From Bactericera cockerelli (lineage: Eukaryota > Arthropoda > Insecta > Hemiptera > Triozidae), in assembly GCA_024516035.1 (NCBI GenBank), contig CM044964.1, forward strand, positions 867,410 to 931,409: 64,000 nucleotides of DNA, read 5' to 3'. Position 1 is the first letter of the stretch, and each line of letters opens with the position of its first letter. Position numbers and translations under genes: made by a program. Under the pieces are notes generated by a model. It was not told the origin of the DNA and ran no database searches. It was given only the letters and a program-made list of their open reading frames with translations. This document shows, piece by piece, positions 896-23,532 of the stretch.

Positions 896-1111
896 ACGGC
901 CTGACCAAGGAAAGCTTCGAGCTCCTATGTCCGGACGGCACGCGCGCCCCCGTGGACAACTACCAGAGCTGCAGCTGGGGCCAGGCGCCCTCCAATGCCG
1001 TCATGACCACCTCGGCCAAGTCTGCGCAGACGCGGAAGCACTACCAGCAGTTCCTGATGAAGAGCGTGCAGCTGTTCGGGGGCCCCGTGCCGCCCGTGCA
1101 GAGACTACAGG
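896..1111 (+). CDS. Tsf: Transferrin exon T1 (end of N-lobe)
   Basis: 216 bases, phase 1 on both sides. It starts after TTCCAG and ends CTACAG|G before GTGAGT. It encodes (D)[19 protein letters not shown] followed by a segment with the [12 protein letters not shown] motif typical of the end of a transferrin lobe, then [19 protein letters not shown] content is far above the introns. The first donor is chosen because it gives the family-like length and joins T2 in frame (RLQ-DPNLLPQ). Nine further copies of its 3' end follow. Confidence 0.9.
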
Positions 1112-4100
1112 GTGAGTGTGTATACAATGAGTCTGGCTGGGGGACTATAAACAGCAAGCACTACCAGCAGTTCCTGATGAAGAGCGTGCAGCTGTTCGGG
1201 GGCCCCGTGCAGAGACTACAGGGTGAGTGTATATACAATGAGTCTGGCTGGGGGACTATAAACAGCAAGCACTACCAGCAGTTCCTGATGAAGAGCGTGC
1301 AGCTGTTTGGAGGCCCCGTGCCGCCCGTGCAGAGACTACAGGGTGAGGGACTGTTTTTTCTTCTTTGTATTTTCAGTATGTATATCAATATAATCAGTAT
1401 AAACAGAAAAGTGAGAAGTTGTACTAGATGTACATGAATATCAGAACATACCTGGACAGCTGTTTCGAGCTTATTTGCTCTCATCAGCAGGTAATAGTTC
1501 TGAATAATATCCATGTCACCAACTAACCTCTCTATTTTAATCAGTATAAACAGAAAATATACAATGAGTCTGGCTGGGGGACTATAAACAGGGAGTCGAC
1601 CAGCAGTCTAGCCTGGGGACTATAAACAGGGAGTAGACCAGCATTGGCTTGGTTCTGGGGGCCCTTGTCAATTATTAGCCTCCTTGTAAAGACAGTGGTA
1701 GAAGTGCTGAGTCATTCCTCCACTGTCTGGCTACCATCGTTCACGATGACGCCACCCTATGATGATGATGATATACAATGAGTCTGGCTGGGGGACTAGA
1801 TAGATAGATAGAAAAAATATTTGTATTTATTGTATAATAGTTACAAAGTGAGGATTGACAATAAGATATAGCTAAGTCTGCGCAGACGCGCAAGCACTAC
1901 CAGCAGTTCCTGATGAAGAGCGTGCAGCTGTTCGGGGGCCCCGTGCCGCCCGTGCAGAGACTACAGGGTGAGTGTGTATACAATGAGTCTGGCTGGGGGA
2001 CTATAAACAGCAAGCACTACCAGCAGTTCCTGATGAAGAGCGTGCAGCTGTTTGGTGGTCCCGTGCAGAGACTACAGGGTGAGTGTATATACAATGAGTC
2101 TGGCTGGGGGACTATAAACAGCAAGCACTACCAGCAGTTCCTGATGAAGAGCGTGCAGCTGTTCGGGGGCCCCGTGCAGAGACTACAGGTGAGTGTATAT
2201 ACAATGAGTCTGGCTGGGGGACTATAAACAGCAAGCTCTACCAGCAGTTCCTGATGAAGAGCGTGCAGCTGTTCGGGGGCCCCGTGCAGAGACTACAGGG
2301 TGAGTGTATATACAATGAGTCTGGCTGGGGGACTATAAACAGCAAGCTCTACCAGCAGTTCCTGATGAAGAGCGTGCAGCTGTTCGGGGGCCCCGTGCAG
2401 AGACTACAGGGTGAGTGTATATACAATGAGTCTGGCTGGGGGACTATAAACAGCAAGCTCTACCAGCAGTTCCTGATGAAGAGCGTGCAGCTGTTCGGGG
2501 GCCCCGTGCAGAGACTACAGGGTGAGTGTATATACAATGAGTCTGGCTGGGGGACTATAAACAGCAAGCACTACCAGCAGTTCCTGATGAAGAGCGTGCA
2601 GCTGTTCGGGGGCCCCGTGCCGCCCGTGCAGAGACTACAGGGTGAGTCACTTTTTTCTTCTTTGTATTTTCAGTATGTATGTATGGTTTTATTTGTGGTG
2701 AAGCACAAGGCCTCTTCACAATTTTTGTGGGTAGCTCAGCATTACTAAGAGCCTCCTGTACTTTTCGAATTATTCTATTACATCAATTTCTTTTTACTCT
2801 GGTAATGCCGCCACTGGTCGTTACTCATACAAGTAACTACTCATTTTTCCTCACGAGGTATGAGTGGACCCCGAACACCCAAGAACAGAGCAGAAAAAAT
2901 CCTGCTCCGCTGGGGATCGAACCCAGGTCACCGTGCGTGCAATGCCTAGCGCGCTAACTCACTCTGCCACGGTGACTTCTTTTTTTCAGTATGTATATAC
3001 AATGAGTCTGGCTGGGGGACTAGATAGATAGATAGATAGAAAAAATATTGTATTTATTGTATAATCCCAGACAGCACGGCAGTTGACTTCCAGTCTGGAT
3101 TTAAGGTGGAAATATCCAGGTGTATAAAGTCAACTGGACCTCCAACTGTCCCGACAGCTGGATTTTTCCATCATGGATTAAATCAGTTGACCAGCCACCT
3201 GGATATTTCCAACAAAAATCCATCTAGACTCAGTCACCTGGGCAGTCAGCTGGAAATATAACGACTCTCTCCAGCTAGGACATAACTAGAATTTAGTCAG
3301 TTGACCAGTCAGCTGGAAATGTTCCATATTTTTCCAGTTTACATAAAACGCGTCCTTTGTTGAAGACGCCATCTTTGATCTTTCGTAATTTCAGAATCAT
3401 TGTGATATTGGTGATATGGTGATTGTAAATTGTTTTAAATAATTAATATTTCTTTTAAATATTAGGTATTTCATTTAGTTTTGAACATTTTTAAATACAA
3501 ATATCATTTTAATTAGTTTTGATCTTTTTTATAACTACTGGAAGTGTTTAGATAAAACTCGTCCTTTAAAGGACGAGTTTTATCAACAATTGTTGAAGGA
3601 AATTCAGAAATTGTGATATTTTTGTGACAAATTGTGAATTGTTTTAAATAATTAATAATTCTCTTAAATATAATAGGTATTTCATTTATTTGAACATATT
3701 TTAAATACAAATAATATTTTAATTAGTTTTGAACATCTTTTTTATAACTATGAAAGTGTTTACTTTGTCATTTCTGAACTCCAAATTTGCTTTCGAGATG
3801 TTTCAAAAAATAGTTCTTAAGTTTGTCTAAATCGTGACAGAAGGAAAGGAGAGGACAAGAAGCAGTTAATACTGGATCACCTTTTTCATCTGACAATAAC
3901 CATCCATTTCTAGAGACATCCACTTGGACCCTAATGAACTTTCTGCACTCTGCTGTTCCTGGACCTTCAGTGGGATTAACACCTTCAGTTCACTTGGAAT
4001 CATACCAGCTACCCATATTAATCTCACCTAGCCTAGCCAAGCCAAAGCAGGACCATGAATGCTAGTCTCATGTGTTAAGGGAAACAGAATTTTTTATGCT

Positions 4101-7100
4101 CAAGATCTCTTGACCATAGGTTGGCTAAAAAAAGGTTCTGGTTCAAGCAAAGGAACAGCTGAATGCATAGTGCTAGATAGTGAAATTTTTCACTCTGTGG
4201 ATTTTATTTAGATGTACAATACTTTATAAAATATAAATATTCATTATAAAATGAATATTTCACTGATAGGTGGTTCTGCCACACTAAAAAATGATGTTTA
4301 CTTTGTGACATGCTTCCTGATTACTTGATTTAAAATTAATTGGCCAATTTACTGTGCACTGTTCATAATAACAATAATAACTATTGTGCTCTCTCTACCA
4401 CCTTATTACTATGAAGGCCCTTAAATTTTGAGTTAATTTTATATCTATTTAAAAAAAGTGTTCCACACTATTGTGTTTTATAATTTCACTAGTCTTAACA
4501 AGTCAATTTTGTTTTAATTTAAGTATAACAATGTTTTTTGGTAATAATTCTCAAAGCAAACAACCCAGCAATTCTAATTAGCCACAGCAGTATATAAATT
4601 GTCATGAAGGATTACAAATACATAATAACATTCACTAATCCATGTTCAACCCCGTTAGACATTGCTTAACTTTTGCAATTTCATGAAAACTGGTGTATTC
4701 CATGCCCCATCTTCATTTTCTGCTGGCTATTAGTTTATTTCTTTGTTATTTTTGGTTTCTCAAAAGAAATATATTTTAATTTACATAGTATTATTATTTT
4801 ATTGTGATTATGTACATGTTATGAGCATATTTTATAATTGGATATCATTATTTTATTTCTATACTAGCTAAAACCTGGCATTTTGTCACCATTAAGGTAT
4901 TTTCTCATGGCCGGTGTCCCAATAAAAATAATAATAACACTTTTAACTGGAAGGTAACCACCAGGTAAGGTTAAAGGTTATGCTCAAAGCATTTTCTACC
5001 ACCTAACCCTCAGAGTCTTATTATTATGTGGTCACAACCATAATGAGGAAAAAATTGAAACAACGGAACCCTACGCTAGGTTGATTATCTGACTAGCGCA
5101 TTAACCACTTGATTACCAGTGCACTTGAAAATTGTATTAGATATTTTAATTTTGATAATTTTCTAGTATGTTGAAGGTGGCTTAGGGGGGGTGAACTCTC
5201 AGTGAGAGTACCGTTTGGTATTGTAACCCCAAGAGGACATAGTTAGCCAGACATGCATAACTTTGAGTTTTATATATAGAGATTATACCTACTTAGAAAT
5301 ACTTGTGATACATTGGTACAAGGTCTTGTGACATGATGGAAATTTGATAGTGCATTTTACACTTTTGGGACAATTTTTTTAATAATAAACACTCTTATTG
5401 TAAAAATATAATAATGTTAAAGAGTCTTATTTGAATTGTGTTGTGTAAAACAGATTAGTTATTTTCTTTTTCTTTCCAACTTTCTATATAAAAAAAATTA
5501 TACTCAAAATTGTGTGTGTGTACGTGTTAAAAAAACCTATTTAAAATTTATTACTTTATTTTTATACAAAAAAAATATTCTTCATGAGATTTGAATGCAT
5601 GGCCTCTAAATTAAATAACTGAAATTGAATTTATGCCTAATATACATTTGTTTCTAGTATTTTTATTACTATTATTATTTGAAAAAAAAAATGCATATAA
5701 TGGGATTCGAACCCACGACCTCAAAACCAAGAGCGTAGCATTTGATTATTATGTAGTATAATGTACAGTATAGGTAAATAGGTATGTCAACATTGTGGTA
5801 GTGAGTTACTACCCATCCACTAGAGAGCGCTACAAGTAGCTGGAAATAAGTGGAACAAATCCAGTTGACTTTGGGCAACTGACTTCCAGTTAAAAGTTGG
5901 GTTACTTTCCAGTTCATTTCCAGTTGATTTCCAGGTGGAGGTCAGGTGGAAGGTGGAAATCTCCAGCTGATTTCCAGGTGGGCAAGTAGACTTTTTCCAC
6001 CTAACAGTATGGTATACATCCAGTTGACTGTGCTGTCTGGGATAGTTACAAAGTGAGGATTGACAATAAGATATAGCTATTGTGATACAATTAAATTTTC
6101 AAACATAAATAACACCTTGAAAATAAAAAACAAATTACCAACGATAGAAAATATTTCCGTACCTAAATATTATGATAAAAAATTTCCGACTAAATTTCTA
6201 ATATAAAGGAAAGTGGCTGGGGGACTCTAAACAGGGAGTAGACCAGCAGTCTGGCTGGGGGACTGTAAACAGGGAGTAGACCAGCAGTCTGGCTGGGGGA
6301 CTGTAAACAGGGAGTAGACCAGCAGTCTGGCTGGGGGACTATAAACAGGGCGTAGACCAGCAGTCTGGCTGGGGGACTATAAACAGGGAGTAGACCAGCA
6401 GTCTGGCTGGGGGACTATAAACATGAAGTAGACCAGCAGTCGGGCTAGGGACTATAAACAGGGCGTAGACCAGCAGTCTGGCTGGGGGACTATAAACAGG
6501 GAGTAGACCAGCAGTCTGGCTGGGGGACTATAAACAGGGAGTATATCAGCAGTCTGGCTGGGTCATAAATAGGGAGAAGACCAGCATTGGCTTGGTTCTG
6601 GAGGCCCTTGTCAATTATTAGCCTCCTTGTGAAGACAGTGGTAGAATTGGTGAGTCATTCCTCCACTGTCTGGCTACCATCGTTCACGATGACGCCACAA
6701 TATGATGATGATATACAATGTACATGTACATATACATATACTTATGCATGAAATGTTTCATTTAGTTTTATTAAATATAAAAAAAACTTGTCCCAGGGAC
6801 CATCGTTCCGGAAGGGAACCAATTATGCAAGAAGCATTTCCTCTTTGAATGGCTAGACCAATTTTTTGGTAAAGAAAAGAAAAGTAAAGAAATTTCCAAT
6901 CAATTTCTTTCCCAAATGGTCTAACCATTTCTTAGATTCAAATGTCGATGAAAAAAATTACAGGATGGATATTCAAGAAAAAATATAATCTGCTCATTGA
7001 GCACTTAGGTCTGACCTCCCTTCAGGATAGGACGAAAGAAGTGCAGTTAAAATTCCTGCAAAACATGTTAATCATGTCTATGTAAATGAGAGGGTGGGTT

Positions 7101-10100
7101 TTAGAGAACCATACCACAGGCTTAGATCTATAGGTGCAAAGAAACTACAAATGCCTAATAGGAGGGAAACCTACATGTTCAAATCGCCTATTATACACGC
7201 AATATCACTGTACAATGAGCTAGAGATCCATTCTGATGATGCTTGCTAATGCCATGAATAGATTTTCTCCTTTCTCTATTAATTTTGTTTTTTTTTTTAA
7301 AATATTCTTATTATTTTTTTTTCTCTATTTTCTTTTGTACCAAATTATTGTCAGAATTATTGCTGGATATTATGGTTGTCGGTAGTAATACTTGCAACCT
7401 CATCTCCAGTGTAGACATATGTGTGTAAAAAAGAAGAAAAAAACATTTGTTTCGATGATAATTAGTAAAAAATTGATTTTCACTGTCTGAAATCACAAAT
7501 AAGGTGTGGTTCTGTAAGGAATATATTATGTAAAAGTTTTCTACAAAAAAAAAAACTTTTTAAGCAGGAAACCTCTACAAGTAGGAACATATAGCTGATC
7601 CCTTGTGTTCATGGAGTTGGACATTATACCATAGCTAATTGTTATTCCAATGAATTTCAATGTGCCGATAGCTCAGTGGGAAAGGCGGCACTGTGTGAAT
7701 CCAGAGATTCCAGAGGTCGCGGGTTCGAAATCCAGCCGGGACAAGACAAGTTATCCTCCTATTTGGGATTTTCACCACATAATAATACGTCTTGGGCTTA
7801 CTGCTGGAGTAATGGGACTATATAGTTCTAATCGGGCAGTATAAATAAGGCGATATTATTATTATACATTCCATTTATATCTAGCTTCTAAGTTAGTAAA
7901 GAGGATACATTTATGTTTATCTCATTACAACTATATCTCTTATTTTAAACAATTCACACAGGATCACACTATTCTGGATATAATAAAAAGATAAATGTGT
8001 TTCTTTGTGTTATTGTATCACAATTTTAGTGGGTAGCGCAGAATTATAGGACTTTTCCATATCATTAATATCCCAATATCTTATTTTTGCCTATAATTTC
8101 GCCACTGGTCGCGCACACTAAATGAGCACACTAAAGCAGCTACTCATTTTTCCTCACGAGGTATGAGTGGACCCCGAACACCCAAGAACAGAGCAGAAAA
8201 AATCCTGTCGCTGGGGATCGATCCCAGGTCACCGTACGTGCAATGTGCCCAGCGCGCTAACTCACTCTGCCACGGTGACTTCTAATTCTGGATGTATTAT
8301 TATTTATTTATTTCGCAGACCCCAACCTGTTGCCTCAGAAGGACAAGCCGTCGTTCTACTACACGGACGAAACCAACTTCTCGCCTCTGAACAACAACAT
8401 CGACGGAAGCAGGCCGGTGTACAACGGGGTGGATGATCCCGACATTCAGTTCCGCAACCCCTACGAGAATCTGCCGTTCAAGCTGTTCGAGTCTGCTCCA
8501 CGGTTCGGAAAACGGCGCAATCTTATCTTCCAGGCGAGTGATATAGTGATACTGTTAGTAGGGAGGAATAAATAAATAAAAATAATAAATCACTGTGATC
8601 TATTGCAGCTGTAAATTTGTCTACTTGATTTTACCTTGTCTTTCATTCTATTATTTGATTTAGCCATTATCTTTACATTTATTTTTAACTACATTTTATT
8701 GACACTGTGATTAATATATATTTAATTTTATTGACATATTTTTTTACCTTTATTGTTGTGTTTATAATTATATTGACATTTGTAAATAGGACTAGCACCT
8801 TTAATAAACACCCGTTTACCGGGCTTATTATTAATATTATTAAATCTGTGCATTAGTAGTCAAGTGTTTAAGGTGCTAGTCTGTTTATCCATTTAAGGAT
8901 CCGATGGTTTGTATCTCACCCTATGCATAGTTTTTTCCTCATTTATTTGAGTAGGTACCTATATGACCACATAATAATAATAATGTGTTATTATACATTA
9001 TATAACATCTCATTCTCTTGTGTTCCTCTTTGAGTACAATTGGGGTTATTATTATAAAGACCATAACTATGACGTATAAACAGGTAATAATGTAAAAAAT
9101 TAAAATACAAAATTTAAAACAATATTTAAACAAGAAAAAAAAAGAGGATAAAAAACATAGATAACATGATGTCCTAACCAAAGGGCGGGGTTATTGCCTA
9201 ATGCTAATTTGGGATTTGTCCTAATTGGCACTTATCCGTCCTAATTGGGACTCATACATTCTTAATAGGATGATATTATTTTTATTCTGGGGGCCTTTGT
9301 CAATTATTAGCCTCCTTGTAAAGACAGTCATAGAAGTGCTGAGTCATTCCTCCACTGTCTGGCTACCATACTTCACGATGACGCCATCCTATGACGATTA
9401 TTTTTATTACTAACCAGTAGTCAGTATGACTTTATTTGTGGTGAAGCACAAGGCCTCTTCACAATTTTTGTGGGTAGCGCAGCATTACTAAGAGCCTCCT
9501 GTACTTTTCGAATTCTTTTAAATCGGGAGTGTCTGTGGAAAGGACACAACTGAACATTGATCGCTCTATCCTTTTTATTACTAACCATCTCTAACCAAAT
9601 ACCCCCACCCTTTCCACCTAACCATCTCTAACCAAATACCCCCACCCTTTCCACCTAACCATCTCTAACCAAATACCCCCACCCTTTCCACCTAACCATC
9701 TCTAACCAAATACCCCCACCCTTTCCACCTAACCATCTCTAACCAAATACCCCCACCCTTTCCACCTAACCATCTCTAACCAAATACCCCCCCCCCCCCC
9801 CCCCCCCTCTCCACAGGACACAGCGGATGGTCTCTTCCCCCTGGACGAAAGCAAGCAGACCTACTCGGGCTACCTCGGCTCCGCTCTCGACCAGATCCTC
9901 AACGTTCGGCAATGTCCGGTCGAGCGCATGACGCTCTGCGTGACGTCACACATGGAAATGGAGAAGTGCATCAAGATGCGCACGGCTCTGCGCGCGCAGC
10001 TACTGAAACCCGAGATGAGCTGTCACAAGGCACACAGTCACATCAACTGTATGCAGGTAAGGCTATGAGCTGTCACAAGGCACACAGTCACATCAACTGT

Positions 10101-13100: not shown

Positions 13101-16100
13101 TTGCCTTTATGCCATGTTAGCTTATGTTGCTTTTGGGTCGGCATTGTTCAACCTCATGGTTGAGGTTGGTAGGGTGGAGCACGTTTTTTGTGGCTGGATG
13201 CCCTTCCTAACGCCGACGATTCTATTTGGTTTTAACGTCCTGGATCAGGACGGGGGTTTTACCCTCCATTCGCTGGGAATCGTACCATCTACCCACATTA
13301 ACCTCACCCAGCCTGGGTAGGGCCGGAAGTGCCAGCCTCACGTGTTTGGAGGGAACAGAATTTTCTTCGAAAAGTCTGCTCCAACCGGGATCAAGCTCGG
13401 GATCTCTGGACTACGGCAGTAGTCACAACCATTACGCCACGGAGACTGTCTATTTTTTGTATTTTTGTCTCTACTTCTGCAGGCCATTCAAAGCGGTCTG
13501 GCAGACGTCACAGTGCTGGATGCCGGAGATGTGTACACGGCCGGGCTCCAGTACAGTCTCATCCCATTCATATCTGAGGTCTACAACCTGGGGGTCCCTG
13601 AGTACTATGTCATAGCTGTGGCCAAGGAAGAAGACCCCTCTACGGAACTGACGTATCTCAAGGGTAAGTAGATTAATGTGTAGTGCATTCAGCCCTAATG
13701 TTTCATTTGGTGTTCATTCAACATAAAAGTTGAAGTAACAAGTCAAGGTACAAGCAGAAGTAATACAAATAAAACATAAAATACAAAAAATACAATACGG
13801 GAAGAGACACAATATGTATATCAGAGACAGTGAAAAGTGGGTATGCTAATAATACTTACTTTACTTTATTGTGACGACGGCCTTAATGACCATATTATGT
13901 CTGTTCTATAGCAGCCCTCCAAATGCTAAATAATAGTATCAGTATATCAGTATAAACAGAAAATAGTCATCGTAAATCTAACAGGGCACGTTTGCATCAA
14001 AATCCATCGAGAGGTACTCATTAATAGAGTAAAAAGTTTTTGTTTTTAGGACATTTTCAATATACATATAATTTGAATGCAGGAAAATGTAGGTCGCGTA
14101 CAGATGGTTGTAATTTATTAAAAAAATAATACCCCATAATGATTCATAGCGTTTTTGACCTTAGTCACCCGATGACGAATAGGTAGGTACCAAATTTTTT
14201 AATCAAGGTAATAATAATAATATCGCCTTATTTATACTGCCCGATTAAGACTACTTAAGTCTCATTATTCCAGAAGTAAGCCCAAGACGTATTATTATGT
14301 GGTAAAAATCCCAATGTGGTAAAAATCATGTCCCGGCTGGGTTTCGAACCCGCGACATCTAGAATCTCTGGATTCACAGAGTGCCGCCTTTACCACTGAA
14401 CGACCGTGACATTGAAATACATTAGAATAAAAATAAGCTATGGTATACTGTCCATTGTCCAACTCCATGAACAGGAACTGTTGGAATCCGTCCGTTCGAA
14501 TCCCACCCAGTGCATAAATTTTTATTATCATGCATGTATAGAATAACAATAAGCTATGGTACACTGTCCAAGTGTCCATTGTCCAACTCCATGGACAGGA
14601 ACTGTTGGAATCCGTCCGTTCGAATCCCACCCAGTGTTCGAATCCCATATAGTACGTGTAATTTTTATTATTATTATTATAACTATACCCTCAGGCAAGA
14701 ACACCTGCCACACGGGCCTGTACACCGCGCCGCTGGATTTTCCCCATGGCGTTTCTCCTCTCCAACGGCTGGATGCGGCCCTACGGCTGCGACAGTATCC
14801 GGGCGGCGGCTGAGTACTTCTCCAAGTCCTGCGTGCCGGGGGCCCTCAGCGCGGAGTACAACCCCGGCCTCCCCTATGACAACCTGTGTGACCTGTGCCA
14901 CGGGGCCAGCTATAGGTACTGTCGGCGAGACGCGAGTGAAGACTACTATGGCTACACAGGTGAGATACTGTTACTGTGAATATTATACTGTGTGACCTGT
15001 GTCATGGGGCCAGCTATCGGTACTGTCGGCGAGACGCGAGTGAGGACTACTATGGCTACACAGGTGAGATACTGTTACTGTGAATATTATACTGTGTGAC
15101 CTGTGTCATGGGGCCAGGTATCGGTACTGTCGGCGAGACGCGAGTGAAGACTACTATGGCTACACAGGTGAGATACTGTTGCTGCTACTACTGTGAATAT
15201 TATACTGTGTGACCTGTGTCACGGGGCCAGCTATCGGTACTGTCGTCGAGACGCGAGTGAAGACTACTATGGCTACACAGGTGAGATACTGTTACTGTGA
15301 ATATTATACTGTGTGACCTGTGTCATGGGGCCAGCTATCGGTACTGTCGTCGAGACGCGAGTGAAGACTACTATGGCTACACAGGTGAGATACTGTTACT
15401 GTGAATAGTATACTGTGTGACCTGTGTCATGGGGCCAGCTATAGGTACTGTCGGCGAGACGCGAGTGAAGACTACTATGGCTACACAGGTGAGACATCTA
15501 TGTTGGAACCGGGACTTGAACCACCGACCTCCAGGTTACAAGTCCGTTACAAGCCTTCCCGATTACAGGTTTCAAGCCCTATCGATAAAGCTACTGAGGT
15601 CGGATCCTTTTAATTTATTTTGGTTGAAAAATATATTAATTTATTTAGATCAAATTAAACCCTCTTTCCATTTATTATTATTATTATAGTAAGCTTTATT
15701 AGGTAGAACAAAAAATATATTCAGCAAAATACAATGAAATTATAGAGAAAAACAAAAAGATTGAATAAAGATACAAGAAAAAAAAATCTGGTGTAAACAT
15801 CACACGACTTTCCTTATCTCCCAAAAAGGAGTCGAATTCCGCCACTGGTGACTGAACGGTAACAGATAACTAAAAATCAATGCCAAATTCGTGATCAGCA
15901 CTTCAAAATCATTTAATTTGATATGTCACAACCCCCATCTTGGATGAATAATAAAAAAGTTAGTCCAATCGGGTCCCCCTACAATACCGGTAAATTGGGG
16001 CCGGTTTCCAAAAAGTTAAAGATATCAAAAAAATGATCAGAGTGAACCCCTATTATTTTTTTAATCTGAGAAAATGTTGTTCTCGAACTTTTTTTGTATC

Positions 16101-18253
16101 TTTAACCAATTCAAAGAAGCGGTGCTTGCGGCCAATTGAATTGAATATTTGCGAATAAAATTGAATTGAATTGAATATTTGCGGCCCTGCGGCCGCAGAA
16201 TGCGGCCGATTTCAACCAAAAGTTTCATGGTTCGTCTGGTGTATAAAATTAATTACCATATCAAATTTCAAGTCTCTAGCTCTTACCGTTCTTGAGATAT
16301 CCTGTTCACACACACACAGACACACAGACAGACACACAGACAGACACACAGACAGACGCACGGACCAATGGCTGAAAACCACTTTTTTGGTATCCTGAGG
16401 CTATGATTCGTCCAGAAATGTGAATAGCTGGGTAGGTCAAATTTTCGACGAATACAATACTTTCCTTATTATAGGATAAGGAAAGTAAAAAGAGAATGAA
16501 GTAAATGTACTACCTAAAGGGCGGGGCTATTGACTGTGGCAATCTCTTCCACCCAACCCTTTGGGTGGAAGAAATTACCGGTAAGGTGCCCAATACACTT
16601 GTCGCATTTCCTTTTGAATTGCTGTGGAAATTCGTTCGTTGAGATCATAATAATAATAATTACCTCTCGCTTGGTTTGCAGGAGCTTTCCGCTGTCTGAT
16701 AGAAGGCGGAGGTCACGTCGCCTTTGTGAAGCACACCACAGTTCTGGAGAATACAGACGGCAAGAGGAAAGACTGGTGGGCTCGCAATGCTCTGAAGGAG
16801 GACTTTGAGCTGCTGTGTCCTGACGGTAAGTTAGAGGAAGGAGTGGTGGAAGACTTTGAGCTACTGTGTCCTGATGGTAAGTTAGAGGAAGGAGTGGTGG
16901 AAGACTTTGAGCTGCTGTGTCCTGATGGTAAGTTAGAGGAAGGAGTGGTGGAAGACTTTGAGCTGCTGTGTCCTGATGGTAAGTTAGAGGAAGGAGTGGT
17001 GGAAGACTTTGAGCTGCTGTGTCCTGATGGTAAGTTAGAGGAAGGAGTGGTGGAAGACTTTGAGCTGCTGTGTCCTGATGGTAAGTTAGAGGAAGGAGTG
17101 GTGGGCTCTGAAGGAAGACTTTGAGCTGCTGTGTCCTGATGGTAAGTTAGAGGAAGGAGTGGTGGAAGACTTTGAGCTGCTGTGTCCTGATGGTAAGTTA
17201 GAGGAAGGAGTGGTGGTCTCTGAAGGAAGACTTTGAGCTGCTGTGTCCTGATGGTAAGTTAGAGGAAGGAGTGGTGGGCTTTGAAGGAGGACTTTGAGCT
17301 GCTGTGTCCTGATGGTAAGTTAGAGGAAGGAGTGGTGAGCTCGGAAGAAGACTTTGAGCTGCTGTGTCCTGATGGTAAGTTAGAGGAAGGAGTGGTGGTC
17401 TCTGAAGGAAGACTTTGAGCTGCTGTGTCCTGATGGTAAGTTAGAGGAAGGAGTGGTGGGCTTTGAAGGAAAACTTTGAGCTGCTGTGTCCTGATGGTAA
17501 GTTAGAGGAAGGAGTGGTGGAAGACTTTGAGCTGCTGTGTCCTGATGGTAAGTTAGAGGAAGGAGTGGTGGGCTCTGAAGGGGGACTTTGAGCTGCTGTG
17601 TCCTGATGGTAAGTTAGAGGAAGGAGTGGTGAAAGACTTTGTGCTGCTGTGTCCTGATGGTAAGTTAGAGGAAGGAGTGGTGGGCTCTGAAGGAGGACTT
17701 TGAGCTGCTGTGTCCTGATGGTAAGTTAGAGGAAGGAGTGGTGGGCTCTGAAGGAAGATTTTGAGCTGCTGTGTCCTGATGGTAAGTTAGAGGAAGGAGT
17801 GGTGGGCTCTGAAGGAAGATTTTGAGCTGCTGTGTCCTGATGGTAAGTAGTTGGACCAACTAAGAACAGCAAGAGCTATAGGAATAAGAGAAAGTGCTAA
17901 GCAAGTACATAAACAAAACCGGGTTTATCATTGAAAACGGGATCCACTGTTGTGGGATTACAGTACATCCTGAGAAAAAATGCAGGATTATGAAATAAAG
18001 CGCATATAATGTGTAACAAATTTGTAAATATTGATCATTACCTTCAGGAAAAATCACCGCTGATGAAATATTTAAAAAAGAACGCTTTTTGACGCCGCCA
18101 TTTTGTTTTCGTGTATTTTTAGTAAGGACCTCTCGAAGGAACATGCCAAATTTGTTGCTTTCCTCATGAAGTGCATTATTTCGGTATCTTAGTGACGTCT
18201 GACCAACGAGACTATATTATCTCCCTTGCCTGAATCCCATATTAGCTTATTAT

Positions 18254-18288
<35 letters not shown>

Positions 18289-21200
18289 TTTATTTTTTTT
18301 ACAAAACAATCAATCATCAAGAACAACAAAATATATAACAATAAATTAAAAAAACAATAAACTTAGAAATATGTACAAAAAGAAATATTATTTTTTATTA
18401 CAATTGTTTTGTAATCCGGGGCGAAGTTAATGCCTTAGGCATTCTCTGCCACTTAACCCCGGCTTTTGTTCAACCTCATGGTTGAGGTTTGTAGGGTGGA
18501 GCACGTTTTTTATGGCTGGATGCCCTTCCTAACGCCAACGATTCTATTTTGGTTTTAACGTCCTGATCTGGACGGGGTGTTACCCTCAATTCGCTGGGAA
18601 TCGTACCAGCTACCCACATTAACCTCACCTAGCCTGGGTAGGGCCGGAAATGCCAGCCTCACGTGTTTGGGGGGAACAGAATTTTCTTCGAAAAGTCTGC
18701 TCAAACCGGAGATCGAACTCGGGATCTCTGGACTACGGGCAGTAGTCACAACCATTACGCCACGGAGACTGGGTGCCTATTTTTATTTTTTCTTATTAAT
18801 TTTTTTAATCTTATCAATTTTATTAATGAATCTTATCAATTTTAATAATAGATTTTTTTCTTTACAATCAACAGAGATTAAAAAAAATATCAGTATTATT
18901 TACAAAATAAAATATAGAAAAAAAATATTTAAATTTAAATGTACAATTGTCTTGTAATCCGGGACGAAGTTAATGCCTTAGGCATTCTCTGCCACTTAAC
19001 CCCGGAGTTAGATTAACCAACTCCGGTCGAGAACTGAAGCACCCCTTCCGCATAGAAAAACCATACACTGCCTCAAAAGAAAATGGCGGACACCATGGTA
19101 ATAGCATATGATGTCCGCCATTTTCTTTTGATGAAGTGCTTCACAGAAGATGCCTAGTGAATATATATATATATATATATATTATTCACTAGGCATCTTC
19201 TGCCAAGATGCCTAGTGCCCAGAGAGCATTGGGAGTTCTTTATTCATTCATTGTTTTTAAAATCTTAGATTATTATCATAGGCGATGATGTTGATGGAAA
19301 TAATGATTATTATATACAAAAAGAAATAGAAATGTAAAGGCTAGTGTAATAATAATTAACACAGAAACTAGAACAAGTCTGCATCCCACGACACAAGGAC
19401 CATACTTCATAGGTATGGCCCTTATAGTGTGGGATGACGACAGCCAAAAGAAACTAGCATAAGTTCAGTAAATATATTAAAATATATATTTTTAAATATA
19501 TATATCTTAATTTAGTTCGTTAAAAAAAAAAGAAAAAAAAAGCATAAGTTCAGTTAAAAATATTATGAATTATGTAAACTGTCATTGTTATATAATTAAA
19601 TATTTGAACCATTTACTTGATATGTATTTAAAAAAAATGTATTATTTTGACTCGTATTTCCCAGGCACCCGCGCTCATCTACCGGACTACGCCCGATGCA
19701 ACCTCGGCCGTGTGAAAGCCAATGCTATCGTGGCAAGAGGTGGCGACCAGTACAACCTGACGCAACTCAATGCCTACATCAACCTATTTGTGTATGCCCA
19801 GCAGTTCTACGCTCGCAAGGATGTTGACGAGTTCAGGTAAGTGCATGCTCAGTTCATGTTCATGTATTTCAGTGCATGTAAAGTCCATGTTCATGTAGTT
19901 AAGTTCATGCTTATGTCACAAGCATGAGGTTAGTACAAACTCAATGCCTACATCAACCTGTTTGTGTATGCCCAGCAGTTCTACGCTCGCAAGGACGTTG
20001 ACGAGTTCAGGTAAGTGCATGCTAAGTTCATGTTCATGTATTTGAGTGCATGTAAAGTCCATGTTCATGTAGTTAAGTTCATGCTTATGTCACAAGCATG
20101 AGGTTAGTACAAACTCAATGCCTACATGAACCTGTTTGTGTATGCCCAGCAGTTCTACGCTCGCAAAGATGTTGACGAGTTCAGGTAAGTGCATGCTCAG
20201 TTCATGTTCATGTATTTCAGTGCATGTAAAGTTCATGTTCATGTAGTTAAGTCCATGTACCTAAGAGCGTGTAATTTTCATGTTCATGTAGTTAAGTTCA
20301 TGCTCATGTCACAAGCATGAAGTTAGTACAAACTCAGCCAACTCAATGCCTACATGAACCTGTTTGTGTATGCCCAGCAGTTCTACGCTCGCAAGGATGT
20401 TGACGAGTTCAGGTAAGTGCATGCTCAGTTCATGTTCGTGTATTTCAGTGCATGTAAAGTCCATGTTCATGTAGTTAAGTTCATGCTTATGTCACAAGCA
20501 TGAGGTTAGTACAAACTCAATGCCTACATCAACCTGTTTGTGTATGCCCAGCAGTTCTACGCTCGCAAGGATGTTGACGAGTTCAGGTAAGTGCATGCTT
20601 AGTTCATGTTCATGTATTTGAGTGCATGTAAAGTCCATGTTCATCTAGTTGAAGTCATGTTAAGCCCATGTAGTTAAGTGCGTGTAATGTTCATGTTCAT
20701 GTAGTTAAGTTCATGCTTATGTCAGTATGTCACAAGCATGAGATTAGTACATAATCACCCATCTCAATGCCTGTATCAATCTGTTTGTGAATGATAATTT
20801 TCTAGTCATGGTAGCTCAGTAGTCACGGTCTAGCAATCCAGAGGTAGCGGGTTCGAATCCCAGCCGGGACATGAATCCCAACAAAATGGGAGGATAACTT
20901 CCTCCCAATTGGAATTTTACATCATAATACATAATTATTGAGATTAGCGCTGGAATACTGTGAGTCTTTTAAAAATATGTGCTCATCGGGCAGTACAAAT
21001 AAGGCGATATTATTTTTATATTATTTTTTCAAAATAAATAAGTAGTCCTTACTTGTTTAATAATACATTATAATCGATTTTTTTTTTTTACAATTGATTT
21101 TCCAAATTCTTAGACAAAACAGTCACTGACTGAAACCTATTTTTGTTGTTTGGCATGCTAATATTTTAAAAAGGCTCTCTCATCTCACACTTTTTTTCTT

Positions 21201-21687
21201 GCACTCTCTCTCTCTCTCTTTCGCCATCTCTCTCGCGCCCAACACCAATTTTTATTTTGTAGTACAAAGTGACCGGTGGCCTCGCCCGAGGACAAACATT
21301 TTATGCTACTTGGTAGTATAAATTTTTAGCTTGGGCACTCAGGACTATAAAATGAATGTCCTCTTACGAGGACATTGGGCGCGAAGAGGCTATTATAACT
21401 TGTAATAATAATAGCTTCTATGATACGATCTATTATCTCTCTCTGGTTTCAGCTTCAGCATGTTCTCCTCCCCGGGCCCCTACTCGGATCTGATCTTCCA
21501 GGACGCCACCCGTCAGCTTCGGGTGATTCCGCCCGAGGCTCGGTGGTACTCGGACTACCTCGGCGAGGACTTCATGCGGGCTCGGCGCCTCGTAGACTGC
21601 CACTCCAGCGCTGTGACGTCATCGCTCTCGCTGGTTGCCTTGGTAACCAGTTTGTGCGTTGCGCTGTTGTTTATTACGCGTCCCTAG
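896..21687 (+). CDS. Tsf: Transferrin, 3' part of gene (end of N-lobe plus whole C-lobe), 8 exons
   Basis: Transferrins are secreted two-lobed iron-binding proteins; in insects they carry or sequester iron in haemolymph. Exons joined: 896-1111, 8319-8533, 9817-10056, 13483-13663, 14695-14959, 16682-16825, 19665-19836, 21453-21687. Intron phases are 1,0,0,1,1,1,2. Family hallmarks visible: [10 protein letters not shown] twice (end of N-lobe in T1, C-lobe across T6/T7), [29 protein letters not shown], and a cysteine-rich C-lobe. By alignment to the classical lobe, C-lobe ligand positions Asp (T4), Tyr (T4), Tyr (T5) and His (T6) appear retained. The anion-binding Arg after CHTG is replaced by Tyr/Thr. 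About 510 residues are seen; the missing part is the signal peptide and most of the N-lobe. Oddities: splice-junction arrays, a GC donor after T2, a 2-base deficit in T5, and a hydrophobic C-terminus. Confidence 0.95.
1018..2641 (+). repeat. Exon-end and donor tandem array at T1, 10 copies in two blocks
   Basis: The unit is the last 69-78 bases of T1 plus the donor G|GTGAGTGT plus about 40 intron bases ending in 'gggggactataaacag', giving 111 or 120 bp. Copies begin near 1040, 1157 and 1267 (block 1), then seven more from 1890 to 2641 (block 2). Block 2 opens with a longer exon piece (AAGTCTGCGCAGACGCGCAAG, 1875-1893), so block 2 arose from a larger duplication. The units come in +PPV and -PPV forms. 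Both lengths are multiples of 3 and the intron piece has no in-frame stop, so exon frame runs through. Confidence 0.93.
1565..1775 (+). mobile_element. Dispersed repeat G with internal minisatellite
   Basis: A short array of 'gtctggctgggggactataaa' units is followed by a unique part, from 'ttggcttggttctgg' through 'ccactgtctggctaccatcg' to a (gat)n tail. Other copies are at 6205-6715 (+), 9280-9405 (+) and 56640-56840 (-). The unit intron piece in the T1 array comes from the 5' end of this element. Confidence 0.7.
2670..2978 (-). mobile_element. tRNA-derived SINE, family C
   Basis: The tRNA-like head is at the right end (reverse complement GTCACCGTGGCAGAGTGAGT, box B GGTTCGATCCCCAG). The body includes 'ctcatacctcgtgaggaaaa' on the reverse strand. 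It sits in a short duplicated flank, TTCAGTATGTAT, on both sides. It lies in intron T1-T2. Confidence 0.8.
3551..3584. repeat. Perfect 34-bp palindrome
   Basis: GATAAAACTCGTCCTTT followed by its exact reverse complement, with no spacer. It lies between the two halves of a local duplication (about 3425-3550 and 3640-3770) inside the 2976-bp transposon. Confidence 0.9.
4636..4695 (-). mobile_element. 5S-rRNA-derived SINE remnant, family L
   Basis: The reverse strand reads 'acaccagttttcatgaaatt' then 'gcaaaagttaagcaatg', matching the 5S internal promoter region around AAGTTAAGCAACG. Very decayed. Confidence 0.4.
4940..5125 (-). mobile_element. tRNA-derived SINE, family F
   Basis: The reverse strand carries a head like 'ctggtaatcaagtggttaa', a tail piece 'ataataagactctgagggtt', then 'ggtggttaccttccagttaa'. 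Nested inside the 2976-bp transposon. Confidence 0.65.
6205..6715 (+). mobile_element. Repeat G with an expanded 38-bp minisatellite (about 9 units)
   Basis: Units of 'gtctggctgggggactataaacagggagtagaccagca' type run from 6205 to about 6580. The unique G body follows ('ttggcttggttctggaggcc' onward) and ends in a (gat)n tail. This is the longest array among the G copies. Confidence 0.75.
7010..7265 (+). pseudogene. Possible LINE reverse-transcriptase C-terminus remnant
   Basis: With frame changes, it yields a basic segment resembling the tail of non-LTR retrotransposon proteins: a [22 protein letters not shown] stretch, then [15 protein letters not shown] before a stop. This match is by eye only. 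The surrounding 6720-7650 is otherwise AT-rich unique sequence with no gene seen. Confidence 0.3.
7655..7865 (+). mobile_element. tRNA-derived SINE, family B
   Basis: The head 'gatagctcagtgggaaaggc' carries box B GGTTCGAAATCCAGCC. The body 'ataatacgtcttgggcttac' runs into 'cgggcagtataaataaggcg' and a (att)n tail. Other copies are at 14208-14415, 20810-21015, 24445-24635, 45050-45255 and 51195-51335. Confidence 0.8.
7975..8290 (-). mobile_element. tRNA-derived SINE, family C
   Basis: Full-length copy with its head at the right end. It is flanked by ATTCTGGAT on both sides (near 7971 and 8285). It ends about 30 bases before the T2 acceptor. Confidence 0.8.
8319..8533 (+). CDS. Tsf: Transferrin exon T2 (inter-lobe region)
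   Basis: 215 bases, entering in phase 1 and leaving in phase 0. The acceptor is TTTCGCAG at 8311-8318. It encodes [20 protein letters not shown] and then [18 protein letters not shown], ending NLIFQ. This is the variable linker before the C-lobe in insect transferrins; the Phe-rich FKLFESA part matches the FQLF(S/E) segment of the family. It joins T3 as [14 protein letters not shown]. It carries no tandem array on either side. Its donor is GC (see next entry). Confidence 0.9.
8531..8539 (+). other. Non-canonical GC splice donor of T2
   Basis: The junction reads CAG|GCGAGT. Apart from the C it is a perfect consensus donor. The next exon begins GACACAGCG in phase 0, and the only nearby GT (8538-8539) would break the frame, so a GC-AG intron is the best reading. 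Confidence 0.75.
8575..9560. other. Intron T2-T3: repeat fragments, no gene
   Basis: AT-rich. It holds a decayed F-type SINE (about 8845-8960), an H-type LINE tail (about 8960-9205), a G body (9280-9405) and a short headless piece of family C (9425-9510). Confidence 0.6.
9280..9405 (+). mobile_element. Repeat G, body only
   Basis: 'ctgggggcctttgtcaatta' through 'tcctccactgtctggctacc' to 'gacgccatcctatgacgatt'. The minisatellite part is absent. Confidence 0.65.
9575..9815 (+). repeat. 37-bp tandem array plus C21 run forming the T3 polypyrimidine tract
   Basis: Six units of 'accatctctaaccaaatacc' + 'cccaccctttccaccta'. The last is cut by an uninterrupted run of 21 C (9787-9807), then TCTCCACAG. 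The array abuts exon T3 and replaces a normal pyrimidine tract. Confidence 0.92.
9817..10056 (+). CDS. Tsf: Transferrin exon T3 (start of C-lobe)
   Basis: 240 bases, phase 0 on both sides, exactly 80 codons. It encodes a linker [20 protein letters not shown] and then the C-lobe opening [20 protein letters not shown], followed by [12 protein letters not shown] and [13 protein letters not shown]. This matches the family pattern (R-x-C-V-x-S-x-x-E-x-x-K-C ... C-x-K-A-x-S-x-x-D-C-M). The usual Asp before the last Cys is Asn here. The end is placed at the first CAG|GTAAG, which joins T4 as CMQ-AIQSG. 36 further copies of its last 44 bases follow. Confidence 0.93.
10013..11872 (+). repeat. Exon-end and donor tandem array at T3, 37 copies
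   Basis: The 50-51 bp unit is 'atgagctgtcacaaggcaca' + 'cagtcacatcaactgtatgc' + 'aggtaag' followed by a 3-4 base linker. I counted 37 copies, including the one in the true exon. Linkers are mostly 'gct' or 'agag', with ggag, act and ggct variants. Donors are GTAAG except a cluster of GTGAG at about 11514-11620 and 11717. A few copies carry GCGCACAG instead of GCACACAG. One copy (about 10209) has lost the GG of CAGG and reads CAGTAAAG. Confidence 0.95.
11986..12135. mobile_element. MITE family M, inverted-repeat element about 150 bp
   Basis: 'cagagacactttctactctc' at the left is matched by 'gagaatggaaagtgtctt' reversed at the right. The inner arms 'cacaacgcactctgattggt' and 'accaatcagagtgcgttgtg' are near perfect. 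A second copy at 39862-40250 is split by an insertion. Confidence 0.75.
12136..12350 (-). mobile_element. tRNA-derived SINE, family E, decayed
   Basis: 'cacattaaactcacccagcc' body and a tRNA-like head reading 'ccagcctccgtggtgtaagg' on the reverse strand. Confidence 0.6.
12590..12700 (+). mobile_element. SINE family E body fragment
   Basis: 'gggtagctggtacgattccc' + 'agcgaatggagggtaaaacc'. The flanks from 12350 to 12900 are otherwise AT-rich with no gene. Confidence 0.5.
12893..13090 (+). mobile_element. SINE family E body and tail, inverted relative to its neighbour
   Basis: From 'tggtacgattcccagcaaat' through 'cgttggcgttaggaagggca' to the tail 'cgggataagacggagtaaaa'. It lies tail to tail with the next copy. 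Confidence 0.7.
13100..13455 (-). mobile_element. tRNA-derived SINE, family E, full length
   Basis: The tail is at the left. The body includes 'ccctccattcgctgggaatc' and 'cacccagcctgggtagggcc'. The head at the right reads 'tccgtggcgtaatggttgtg' on the reverse strand. It ends about 30 bases before exon T4. Confidence 0.8.
13483..13663 (+). CDS. Tsf: Transferrin exon T4 (C-lobe)
   Basis: 181 bases, entering phase 0 and leaving phase 1. Acceptor CTTCTGCAG, donor AAG|GGTAAGT. It encodes [20 protein letters not shown] and then [23 protein letters not shown] carries the Asp ligand position and PEYY-V-x-AVAK the first Tyr ligand position of a transferrin lobe. No tandem array at either end. Confidence 0.93.
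13700..14207. other. Intron T4-T5: AT-rich, no gene
   Basis: No coding or structured element recognised apart from short fragments of the 'cagtataaacagaaaat' sequence also present in intron T1-T2. Confidence 0.5.
14208..14415 (-). mobile_element. tRNA-derived SINE, family B
   Basis: Its (ata)n tail is at the left and its head at the right (reverse 'acggtcgttcagtggtaaag'). A short local duplication of 'aactgttggaatccgtccgt' follows at 14477-14640. Confidence 0.8.
14695..14959 (+). CDS. Tsf: Transferrin exon T5 (C-lobe), with a 2-base deficit
   Basis: 265 bases between CCCTCAG and the first CACAG|GTGAG. It should be a multiple of 3 (phase 1 to phase 1). Before the lesion it reads [12 protein letters not shown]; after it, [20 protein letters not shown], then a Cys-rich stretch and [11 protein letters not shown]. 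The break lies at about 14725-14735, where two single-G losses (gcg-ccg-ctgg for gcggccggctgg) would explain it. CHTG is the anion-binding loop; the usual Arg is not there. The Tyr of GYTG sits at the second Tyr ligand position. Either a sequencing indel or a real lesion; the rest of the exon is clean. Confidence 0.9.
14884..15492 (+). repeat. Exon-end and donor tandem array at T5, 6 copies
   Basis: A unit of about 103-115 bp: the last about 75 bases of T5 (CTGTGTGACCTGTGYCAYGG ... GGCTACACAG), the donor GTGAGATACTG, and about 25 intron bases 'ttactgtgaatattata'. Copies are at 14884, 14990, 15095, 15205, 15310 and 15412. The third has GGTATCGG for GCTATCGG and the third unit's intron part is longer. 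The unit carries the second Tyr ligand codon. Confidence 0.93.
15505..15608 (-). mobile_element. tRNA-derived SINE, family A, rearranged
   Basis: 'gggacttgaaccaccgacct' begins the head. The centre has an internal partial duplication ('acaagtccgttacaagcctt') before 'ctactgaggtcgg'. Confidence 0.65.
15680..16570 (-). mobile_element. LINE 3' end H, split by a nested about 700-bp repeat O
   Basis: H reads, on the reverse strand, 'agggttgggtggaagagatt' ... 'cctaataaagcttact' ... (taa)n. Its halves are 15680-15793 and about 16490-16570, by comparison with the unbroken copy at 51890-52080. Between them lies O (about 15793-16490), with 'actttccttat' at both edges, 'cggtaaattggggccggttt', and a CA/CAGA microsatellite (16309-16360). 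Confidence 0.65.
16682..16825 (+). CDS. Tsf: Transferrin exon T6 (C-lobe)
   Basis: 144 bases, phase 1 both sides. Acceptor GGTTTGCAG, donor CCTGACG|GTAAG. It encodes (G)[20 protein letters not shown], then [15 protein letters not shown] and [13 protein letters not shown] carries the His ligand position. It joins T7 as CPDG-TRAHL. 18 further copies of its 3' end follow. Confidence 0.94.
16775..17850 (+). repeat. Exon-end and donor tandem array at T6, 19 copies
   Basis: The unit is 'gactttgagctgctgtgtcc' + 'tgatggtaagttagaggaag' + 'gagtggtg', with an optional 'ggctctgaagga' piece. The optional piece is exon-derived, since TGGGCTC..TCTGAAGGA precedes GACTTTGAG in the true exon. Two unit sizes therefore alternate (about 57 and 63-66 bp). 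I counted 19 copies including the exon's own. The true exon has GACGG; every other copy has GATGG (synonymous). One copy has TTTGTGCTG for TTTGAGCTG. Confidence 0.94.
17851..18470. other. Intron T6-T7: unique sequence and LINE tail I
   Basis: 17851-18230 has no gene. 18247-18284 is a T-run, and 18285-18465 is an I-type LINE 3' end on the reverse strand (reverse 'gccggggttaagtggcagag' ... 'aataaagtgtaaaa'). Confidence 0.5.
18470..18775 (-). mobile_element. tRNA-derived SINE, family E, full length
   Basis: Same layout as 13100-13455, including 'agcctgggtagggccggaaa' and a head reading 'tctccgtggcgtaatggttg' on the reverse strand. Confidence 0.8.
18790..19012 (-). mobile_element. LINE 3' end, family I
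   Basis: The reverse strand reads 'ccggggttaagtggcagaga' and then an AT-rich 3' end. The match to 18405-18465 and 36180-36345 is plain. Confidence 0.55.
19073..19131. repeat. 20-bp perfect inverted repeat
   Basis: TCAAAAGAAAATGGCGGACA at 19073-19092 pairs with its exact reverse complement at 19112-19131. Confidence 0.85.
19144..19202. repeat. 20-bp perfect inverted repeat around an AT run
   Basis: CAGAAGATGCCTAGTGAATA at 19144-19163 and its exact reverse complement at 19183-19202, with (AT)n between. A third half-copy, AGATGCCTAGTG, follows at 19206. Confidence 0.85.
19380..19436. repeat. Imperfect inverted repeat
   Basis: 'gcatcccacgacacaaggac' and 'gcccttatagtgtgggatg' pair with few mismatches around 'catacttcataggtatg'. 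No gene in 19203-19660. Confidence 0.6.
19665..19836 (+). CDS. Tsf: Transferrin exon T7 (C-lobe)
   Basis: 172 bases, entering phase 1 and leaving phase 2. Acceptor ATTTCCCAG, donor TTCAG|GTAAGT. It encodes (G)[20 protein letters not shown], then [10 protein letters not shown] and [18 protein letters not shown]. The C-N-L-G-x-V-K-A-N-A-I-V motif closes the lobe's iron-binding half. It joins T8 as DEFS-FSMFS. Four more copies of its 3' half follow. Confidence 0.94.
19760..20800 (+). repeat. Exon-end and donor tandem array at T7, 5 copies plus a decayed one
   Basis: A unit of about 173-230 bp: the last about 75 bases of T7 (ACTCAATGCCTACATSAACC ... GAGTTCAG), the donor GTAAGTGCATGC, and about 95 intron bases rich in 'agttcatgttcatgta'. 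Exon pieces start near 19763, 19938, 20114, 20344 and 20516. A decayed start 'ctcaatgcctgtatcaatct' is at 20763. The intron part is itself internally repetitive (tgttcatgt). Confidence 0.93.
20810..21015 (+). mobile_element. tRNA-derived SINE, family B
   Basis: Head 'catggtagctcagtagtcac' with box B GGTTCGAATCCCAGCC and tail 'gcagtacaaataaggcg' + (att)n. The following 21015-21452 is intron with a CT microsatellite (21196-21220) and no gene. Confidence 0.8.
21453..21687 (+). CDS. Tsf: Transferrin terminal exon T8 with stop codon
   Basis: 235 bases. Acceptor GGTTTCAG. It encodes (S)[19 protein letters not shown], then [20 protein letters not shown] and [10 protein letters not shown], the standard C-lobe ending. 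About 27 more residues follow: HSSAVTSS and a strongly hydrophobic [20 protein letters not shown], then TAG at 21685-21687. The hydrophobic tail after small residues resembles a GPI-anchor signal or a membrane anchor, unexpected for a haemolymph transferrin. The tail lies within the tandem unit that is repeated downstream. Confidence 0.92.
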
Positions 21688-22560
21688 ATTGTAAACAACG
21701 GTTGCTATGGAAACAAGCTCACTGGTACTCCATGTGAACTCGCCGCCTCACGACTGCCACTCCGGCGCTGTGACGTCATCGCTCTCGCTGGTTGCCTTGG
21801 TAACCAGTTTGTGCGTTGCGCTGTTGTTTATTACGCGTCCCTAGAATGTAAACAACGGTTGCTATGCAAACAAGCTCGCTGGTAATCCATGCGAGCTTGG
21901 CGCCTCGTAGACTGCCACTCCGGCGCTGTGACGTCATCGCACTCGCTGGTTGCCTTGGTAACCAGTTTGTGCGTTGCGCTGCTGTTGAATGCGCGTCACT
22001 AGAGCTAATTGTAAACAACAGTTGCTATGGAAACAAGCTCACTGGTACTCCATGTGAACTCGCCGCCTCACGACTGCCACTCCGGCGCTGTGACGTCATC
22101 GCTCTCGCTGGTTGCCTTGGTAACCAGTTTGTGCGTTGCGCTTTTGTTAAATACGCGTCCCTAGAATGTAAACAACGGTTGCTATGGAAACAAGCTCACT
22201 GGTACTCCATGTGAACTCGCCGCCTCACGACTGCCACTCCGGCGCTGTGACGTCATCGCTCTCGCTGGTTGCCTTGGTAACCAGTTTGTGCGATGTGCTG
22301 TTGTTTATTACGCGTCCCTAGAATGTAAACAACGGTTGCTATGGAAACAAGCTCGCTGGTAATCCATGCGAGCTTGGCGCCTCCTAGACTGCCATTTTCG
22401 GCGCTGTGACGTCATCACACTCGCTGGTTGCCTTGGTTACCATCTTGTGCGTTGTGCTGCAGTTGAATGCGCGTCACTAGAGCTAATTGTAAACAATGGT
22501 TGTCATGGAATCGAGTACTGGTTGCTATGCAACGCCTTCTACCTTGTACTATTGTTAAAC
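21590..22560 (+). repeat. Tandem array across the transferrin stop codon, 6 copies
   Basis: A unit of about 155-160 bp, from 'cctcgtagactgccactccg' through 'ctgtgacgtcatcgctctcg' and 'ctggttgccttggtaaccag' to 'gtaaacaacggttgctatgg'. The unit holds the coding tail, the stop and 3' UTR. CTGTGACGTCAT occurs near 21611, 21768, 21925, 22088, 22244 and 22402. Later copies decay; 22700-22990 retains recognisable pieces ('acgtcatgaatctcgcttgt', 'gtaaacaatggttgtcatag'). Confidence 0.92.
21614..21647 (+). promoter_or_regulatory. CRE palindrome and RFX X-box match, first of six repeats
   Basis: TGACGTCA (21614-21621) is the full CREB/ATF palindrome. GTTGCCTTGGTAAC (21634-21647) fits the RFX X-box consensus GTNRCC(N0-3)RGYAAC exactly. 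The pair recurs, mostly intact, in each downstream unit. In the first copy these bases are coding, so the match may be incidental. Confidence 0.35.
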
Positions 22561-23397: not shown

Positions 23398-23532
23398 CCG
23401 ACTTCAGTAGCTTGATCGATAAGGCAGCGGACTTGTAACCTGGAGGTCGGTGGTTCAAGTCCCAGTTTCAGTGTAGATATAAAGTGAGTTTGAGTAGTTG
23501 TGATATCACGAAAGTGATTAACACAAATATGA
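23398..23532 (+). mobile_element. tRNA-derived SINE, family A, with target-site duplication
   Basis: Flanked by TATATACTAAAAA at 23384-23396 and 23533-23545. Nearly intact. Confidence 0.88.

Follow-up and report, generated by a model that had tools for sequence, protein, structure and literature searches.

Tandem arrays at exon edges of a transferrin 2 gene and its neighbour in Bactericera cockerelli

A 64,000-nucleotide stretch of the Bactericera cockerelli assembly GCA_024516035.1 (contig CM044964.1, positions 867,410 to 931,409; hereafter the window) contains the 3′ portion of a transferrin 2/melanotransferrin gene in which tandem arrays copy the edges of the exons themselves. Arrays cross the donors of five of its eight coding exons (T1–T8), the acceptor of T1 and the stop codon, and they recur in a neighbouring sugar-transporter gene (exons S1–S3). 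We consider these arrays to be, on balance, exon-edge minisatellites of the kind known from amphioxus as "mirages", arising where tandem duplication is favoured in exonic DNA. Since two genes are involved and the arrays are found at acceptors and a stop codon as well as at donors, the process that makes them is neither donor-specific nor limited to one gene. Such a pattern could throw light on the remodelling of exons and introns. All positions below are those of the window, and the exons and their arrays lie on its forward strand.

Results

The eight exons, joined through their first donors and exon-proximal acceptors, encode a protein with a Pfam Transferrin match (E 2.5e-81) that is collinear with seven aligned relatives. 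The gene is most likely of psyllid origin, since the closest named relatives of the T1–T8 protein, among the best 120 of 856 matches, are psyllid (Cacopsylla melanoneura, 81%; Diaphorina citri, 77%). Two of the aligned proteins, P0001 (Cacopsylla) and P0002, cover all T junctions and carry no inserts there; three more distant relatives have gaps around T1/T2, and the D. citri models P0022 and P0003 are odd at T1 and T5, respectively. Exon T1 (896–1111) is bounded by its exon-proximal acceptor and first donor. The other exons are T2 (8319–8533), T3 (9817–10056), T4 (13483–13663), T5 (14695–14959), T6 (16682–16825), T7 (19665–19836) and T8 (21453–21687, ending at the stop codon). When set against the relatives, assembled T5 is not readable in one frame near 14721–14740, where either a consensus error or a real lesion would account for the frame change.

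At the donors of T1, T3, T5, T6 and T7, every array unit runs from the exon across the donor into the intron. The copy numbers given here are those of the assembled sequence of one haplotype. The T1 array (1036–2646) comprises 10 donor copies in units of 110, 111 and 120 bp, arranged in two blocks (1036–1347 and about 1880–2646). At T3 (10015–11876) there are 37 exon ends in 46–52-bp units, each consisting of 42 nt of exon with 5–10 nt between, and GTRAG is present in 36 of the 37. The T5 array (14884–15494) has 6 copies in 104/113-bp units, and the T6 array (16763–17848) has 19 copies in units of 51 and 60/61 bp, in which the exon origin of the non-intronic remainder was judged by eye. The T7 array (19764–20793) contains 5 copies at 174/228-bp spacing followed by a decayed sixth exon fragment at about 20762–20793. 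The intronic part of the unit ranges from 5–10 bases at T3 and about 7 at T6 to 28 at T5, 43 at T1 and about 100 at T7. Copies at T1, T5, T6 and T7 were found with search patterns containing the donor itself; the even unit spacing in these arrays indicates that no donor-less copy was missed, with the exception of the T1 interruption at about 1350–1880. A sequence resembling a short interspersed nuclear element (SINE), recognised by eye and with a tRNA-like head, lies at 15495–15600, directly after the T5 array and about 7 nt from the last donor.

The array overlapping the T8 stop codon (21573–22540, right end approximate) has 6 copies at 157–162-bp spacing, with the stop codon within the first copy. 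Upstream of T1, an acceptor-side array occupies 1–895 (a 149-bp unit over 388–845 according to Tandem Repeats Finder (TRF)) and may extend left of the window. It carries four decoy 3′ splice sites, each with about 20 nt of the T1 exon start, at 268, 469, 626 and 772, ahead of the real exon start at 896, and its unit includes more than 100 intronic bases. A SINE-like piece, again with a tRNA-like head by eye, sits inside this array at about 92–235. Before T3, a 37-bp array of 5.8 copies (9581–9795) containing pyrimidine runs and CTAAC, which we take to be branch-point-like, ends about 20 nt short of the exon; in the local-copy test described below the T3 acceptor is marginal (score 11.0, z 3.5, shuffle maximum 9.5).

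To look for copies of exon edges, each of the 22 edges (11 acceptors, 10 donors and 1 stop, from 11 exons) was represented by a 50-base segment spanning it, which was compared with the adjoining 600 bases; a score of at least 20 was taken as a strong local copy. The five donor arrays and the stop-codon array score 40–50, against shuffle maxima of 10–12. Strong copies occur at 8 of the 22 edges, namely the T1, T3, T5, T6 and T7 donors, the T8 stop, and the acceptors of T1 and S1. Random non-exonic positions outside the edge arrays, which were searched downstream only, reach this score in 29 of 520 cases (Fisher P 3.5e-5 versus the edges), and 18 of these 29 fall within three arrays at 6214, 25917 and 38505. 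TRF lists 72 rows, and not one of them is contained entirely within an exon of the 11. The transferrin exons without an array at either edge are T2, whose donor is of the GC type (CAG/GCGAGT), and T4: no downstream copy exceeds the shuffle maximum within about 1.5 kb of the T2 donor or about 1 kb of the T4 donor. Both absences had been reported in an initial annotation of the window, as had the copy numbers at T1, T3, T5, T6, T7 and T8, and all are reproduced here.

We next consider which of the repeated splice sites could be used. The scored decoy donors agree with the consensus at 8–9 of 9 positions, apart from one T1 copy with 7. At T3 and T5 the frame stays open into the following exon from the first donor only; at T7, donors 2–5 lead to a stop at codon 57. 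T1 donors 1–3 and T6 donors 1–6 are in frame and open. Most likely, splicing would use the exon-proximal donor together with the exon-proximal acceptor. How the exon-proximal site would be chosen among up to 36 similar ones is the most interesting functional question that these arrays raise.

Mean pairwise identity among units is 0.95 at T1, 0.91 at T3, 0.93 at T5, 0.89 at T6 and 0.86 at T7. Variation in the T3 units is concentrated in a short seam, where about 4 nt hold 7 hand-counted seam types beyond the first, versus 5 changes in 47 nt (P 1e-5); the resulting 8 seam types all follow an intact GTAAG. In the T6 units, 15 of 18 variable columns fall in 16 of the 61 columns (P 1.7e-10 for a block picked after looking), and this seam is not at the donor but some 20 nt past it, in sequence derived from the exon. 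The T3 and T6 seams could reflect repeated imprecise joining. Seam hypervariability was dropped as a general rule, as column counts inspected by eye give no seam in T1, T5 or T7. A search of the T3 and T6 arrays for recurring runs of identical units, which would point to exchange of several units at once, gives no significant excess (P 0.60 and 0.10).

A pairwise comparison of single units from 12 arrays gives one clear match, between the T1 donor unit and a 38-bp minisatellite of intron 1 at 1567–1643 and 6214–6586 (score 25.5, shuffle maximum 11.5); the T3–T5 and T3–T6 pairs exceed the shuffles by just 1.5 and 0.5. The sequence in common lies in the intronic part of the T1 donor unit. Since this unit holds part of the minisatellite, at least one array formed with a repeat already present in the intron. 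A kinship between the 38-bp minisatellite and the 36-bp array at 38505, seen by eye, was not borne out by the one-unit comparison.

The right end of the window contains the sugar-transporter gene (Pfam Sugar_tr; a Cacopsylla protein matches 49% of the query at 73%), with exons S1 (62023–62152), S2 (62836–63006) and S3 (63388–63588). A 2.1-kb array of a 25-bp unit (59911–62022; TRF periods also 50, 77, 260 and 363 bp) with 38 occurrences of TTCCAG ends exactly at the S1 acceptor AG. Many of its units end in TTCCAG and resemble 3′ splice sites. At the S3 donor, the region 63549–63735 contains the end of the exon with its donor and, downstream, two decayed tandem copies of both (63615–63735), which give a local-copy score of 16 (z 6.7), under the threshold of 20. 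The S1 donor gives a marginal match only (15.0 versus a shuffle maximum of 14.0), and edge arrays were not found at S2. The initial annotation had described arrays at the donors and stop codon of one gene; these are present, and it had missed the acceptor arrays at T1 and near T3 as well as those at S1 and S3 of the sugar transporter.

Discussion

The closest counterparts of these arrays are the mirages of amphioxus. Two papers (PMC3087553, PMC3902484) describe tandem repeats over exon-intron boundaries, at either boundary, in Adh3, the globins BflGb6 and BflGb9, TnC and PGBD5, with units of 10–72 bp in Adh3 and of 150–160 bp in BflGb6, where there are 3–6 units. Normal splicing is suggested there by reverse transcription PCR, and length instability is reported. 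Mirages as described there share four features with the window: repeats cross boundaries (here at the T1, T3, T5, T6 and T7 donors, the T1 acceptor and, in decayed form, the S3 donor); both 5′ and 3′ boundaries are duplicated (here the donor arrays and the T1 acceptor array); splice signals recur in many units (36 of 37 at T3 and, the T1 interruption aside, the evenly spaced copies at T1, T5, T6 and T7); and units of tens to about 160 bp leave the functional exon at one end. The arrays thus appear to have the anatomy of mirages in every feature tested, a likeness that concerns sequence anatomy; with regard to splicing, what is observed is the collinearity of the joined protein with its relatives. 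They differ from those mirages in their insect (hemipteran) host and in that a neighbour gene is affected too. They also differ in density, with 8 of the 16 edges of the transferrin exons involved (the T1, T3, T5, T6 and T7 donors, the T8 stop, the T1 acceptor and, less clearly, the T3 acceptor), in the 37 copies at T3 compared with 3–6 units in BflGb6, and in having one array over a stop codon. What is most likely new, then, is that the host is an insect, how densely one gene and its neighbour are affected, the copy numbers and the array over the stop codon.

Other systems are related more loosely. In intron gain by tandem genomic duplication, as presented in PMC4974935 and, for Drosophila, in PMC2891723, a duplication with splice signals can likewise make exon copies intronic; there, however, a duplicated exonic proto-splice site gives rise to a new intron, whereas here the edges already border introns and the copies number in the dozens. 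In internal tandem repeats of human segmental duplications (PMC2812944), minisatellite expansion at exon-intron boundaries likewise changes exon and intron length; those cases concern paralogues in segmental duplications, and the passages available do not describe clustering at many edges of one gene. Among the open-access papers listed by literature searches there is no report of such arrays in psyllids or other insects, the nearest being the Drosophila tandem-duplication intron gains (PMC2891723). Transposon-borne introns of the introner-like type were rejected, as no mobile sequence is shared across sites among single units of the 12 arrays.

The D. citri models offer a hint of similar arrays in that species. 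P0022 opens with an out-of-place copy of the T1 exon end (residues 1–21), and P0003 lacks the T5 exon end. These oddities are suggestive only, and misassembly or annotation error would explain them equally well. Array-derived gene models were also sought with a translation of 898–1341 (exon T1 plus the first two further units), and none of 88 candidates passes E 0.001.

We propose that short tandem duplications begin preferentially in or beside exonic DNA and would then grow as ordinary minisatellites. Arrays that cross an edge may survive where the exon-side copy supplies an intact exon end while the others turn into intron or 3′ untranslated sequence. For a working first donor, a donor unit would have to include no more than roughly the first 6 intron bases, and the T3 and T6 units have 5–10; an acceptor unit would have to hold a branch point and pyrimidine tract for the copy nearest the exon to work, and a gene-end unit would have to include the stop. 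The common register of the arrays is then largely forced by survival, and a donor-specific mechanism becomes unnecessary: where an array overlies an exon edge without damage to the protein, every copy except the one on the exon side must be non-exonic, so that the unit must begin inside the exon and hold the splice signal. The initial annotation had taken the register shared by five unrelated sequences to suggest a mechanism tied to the donor. The register does not amount to five independent coincidences, as it follows from edge overlap and a protein collinear with its relatives, and a tie to the donor is not supported, given arrays that cross the T1 acceptor, end at or near the S1 and T3 acceptors and overlap the T8 stop.

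Several observations weigh against this reading, or against survival as its only ingredient. With all random positions counted, edge arrays included, strong copies occur at 98 of 600 positions versus 8 of 22 edges (P 0.02), and the data come from only two genes of a window selected for this feature, so that the P values describe the window and not the genome. Many edges are free of arrays: the donors of T2, T4, S1 and S2 and, by the local-copy test, the acceptors of T2, T4–T8, S2 and S3. Later donors at T1 (2–3) and T6 (2–6) could possibly be used. Under a model of uniform breakpoints and survival only where the protein is preserved, 0.26 edge-crossing arrays are expected among the 13 listed by hand, compared with 8 observed, and 0.49 among the 9 of the transferrin locus, compared with 7 observed. 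The hand list is without the very-short-period and low-copy TRF rows and the 28-bp row at 28216. Counting 18 further TRF arrays of period at least 10 as not crossing any edge raises the total to 31 and the expectation to 0.31 (P 1e-10 for 8 or more), mono-, di- and tetranucleotide rows being excluded from this count too; the 8 include the decayed S3 array, and with 7 instead P is 5.5e-9. Random slippage or placement is insufficient, as the initial annotation had argued. Since the survival model expects mostly arrays confined to introns and 8 cross an edge, we infer that a mutational bias toward exonic DNA or exon edges must be added to survival. Base composition does not supply this bias by itself. 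The G+C content of the exons is 0.54–0.66 compared with 0.376 for the window, yet 110 of 993 100-bp windows outside exons and listed arrays reach 0.48 without an array, which rules out G+C content as sole cause, and exons free of donor arrays (T2 0.54, T4 0.54, S1 0.58, S2 0.57) show no clear difference from the others.

The strong enrichment at edges would also be expected if a transcription- or splicing-coupled process, such as R-loops, exon pausing or nicking near sites of spliceosome assembly, repeatedly broke exon edges and built the arrays, and the T3 and T6 seams look as though joins had been repeated and imprecise. However, the array of T8 overlies a stop codon that has no splice site, a seam is not apparent by eye in T1, T5 or T7, and the T6 seam is about 20 nt beyond the donor; we regard coupled breakage as rather unlikely. 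Selection for redundant donors or regulated alternative donor use, which the initial annotation had also suggested, is very improbable as the force that maintains the arrays. The decoys do keep the core consensus (GTRAG at T3, and 8–9 of 9 positions in most scored copies), and T1 donors 1–3 and T6 donors 1–6 are open; yet such consensus is expected anyway because the units were recently copied, as their mean identities of 0.86–0.95 indicate, the later donors of T3, T5 and T7 lead to frameshifts or stops, and arrays occur at acceptors and a stop codon too.

Repeats are often collapsed or expanded in assemblies, and the T5 frame disturbance implies base errors or a lesion in the consensus, as might be the case if copies had been invented or multiplied by the assembler. 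Against this, substitutions and several different joins distinguish the units (8 seam types at T3, two main unit lengths at T6 and T1), the S3 decoys and the trailing T7 fragment are plainly decayed, and independent arrays at separate edges would all need inventing, which leaves an artefact with little probability. An equally small chance attaches to a transposon-linked origin, in which repeats carrying minisatellites were inserted beside exons and seeded the arrays. The 38-bp minisatellite sequence in the T1 donor unit and the SINE-like sequences downstream of the T5 array and within the T1 acceptor array would fit this history, but the T3 and T6 units consist of an exon end plus 5–10 bases with no foreign sequence seen, and among the units of the 12 arrays only the T1/38-bp pair stands clearly above shuffles.

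A bolder version of exon-edge duplication is that it operates throughout the psyllid genome, is targeted to exon edges through a tie to transcription or exon chromatin, and lays down arrays of working splice sites at many edges, so that introns are continually reshaped. We put this forward tentatively, as a doubtful extension. If the density seen here holds genome-wide, psyllids would be a natural laboratory for splice-site choice among dozens of near-identical copies and for how exon-edge tandem duplication makes or moves introns, and mirages would not be a lancelet peculiarity. In practice, edge arrays should confuse gene prediction and assembly.

Additional features of the window

Two further large arrays lie away from the recognised exons. 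At 25917–26581 there are 39 copies of a 17-bp unit, TTTCTGTCATATCCAGG, which is acceptor-like, with no exon recognised nearby. At 38505–39423, 25 copies of a 36-bp unit, open in several frames on both strands, stand in a region with no recognised gene. Rfam at gathering thresholds returns two tRNA matches, at 29914 and 42272, both away from the arrays. A SINE-like element with a tRNA-like head, identified by eye, is located at 23400–23520.

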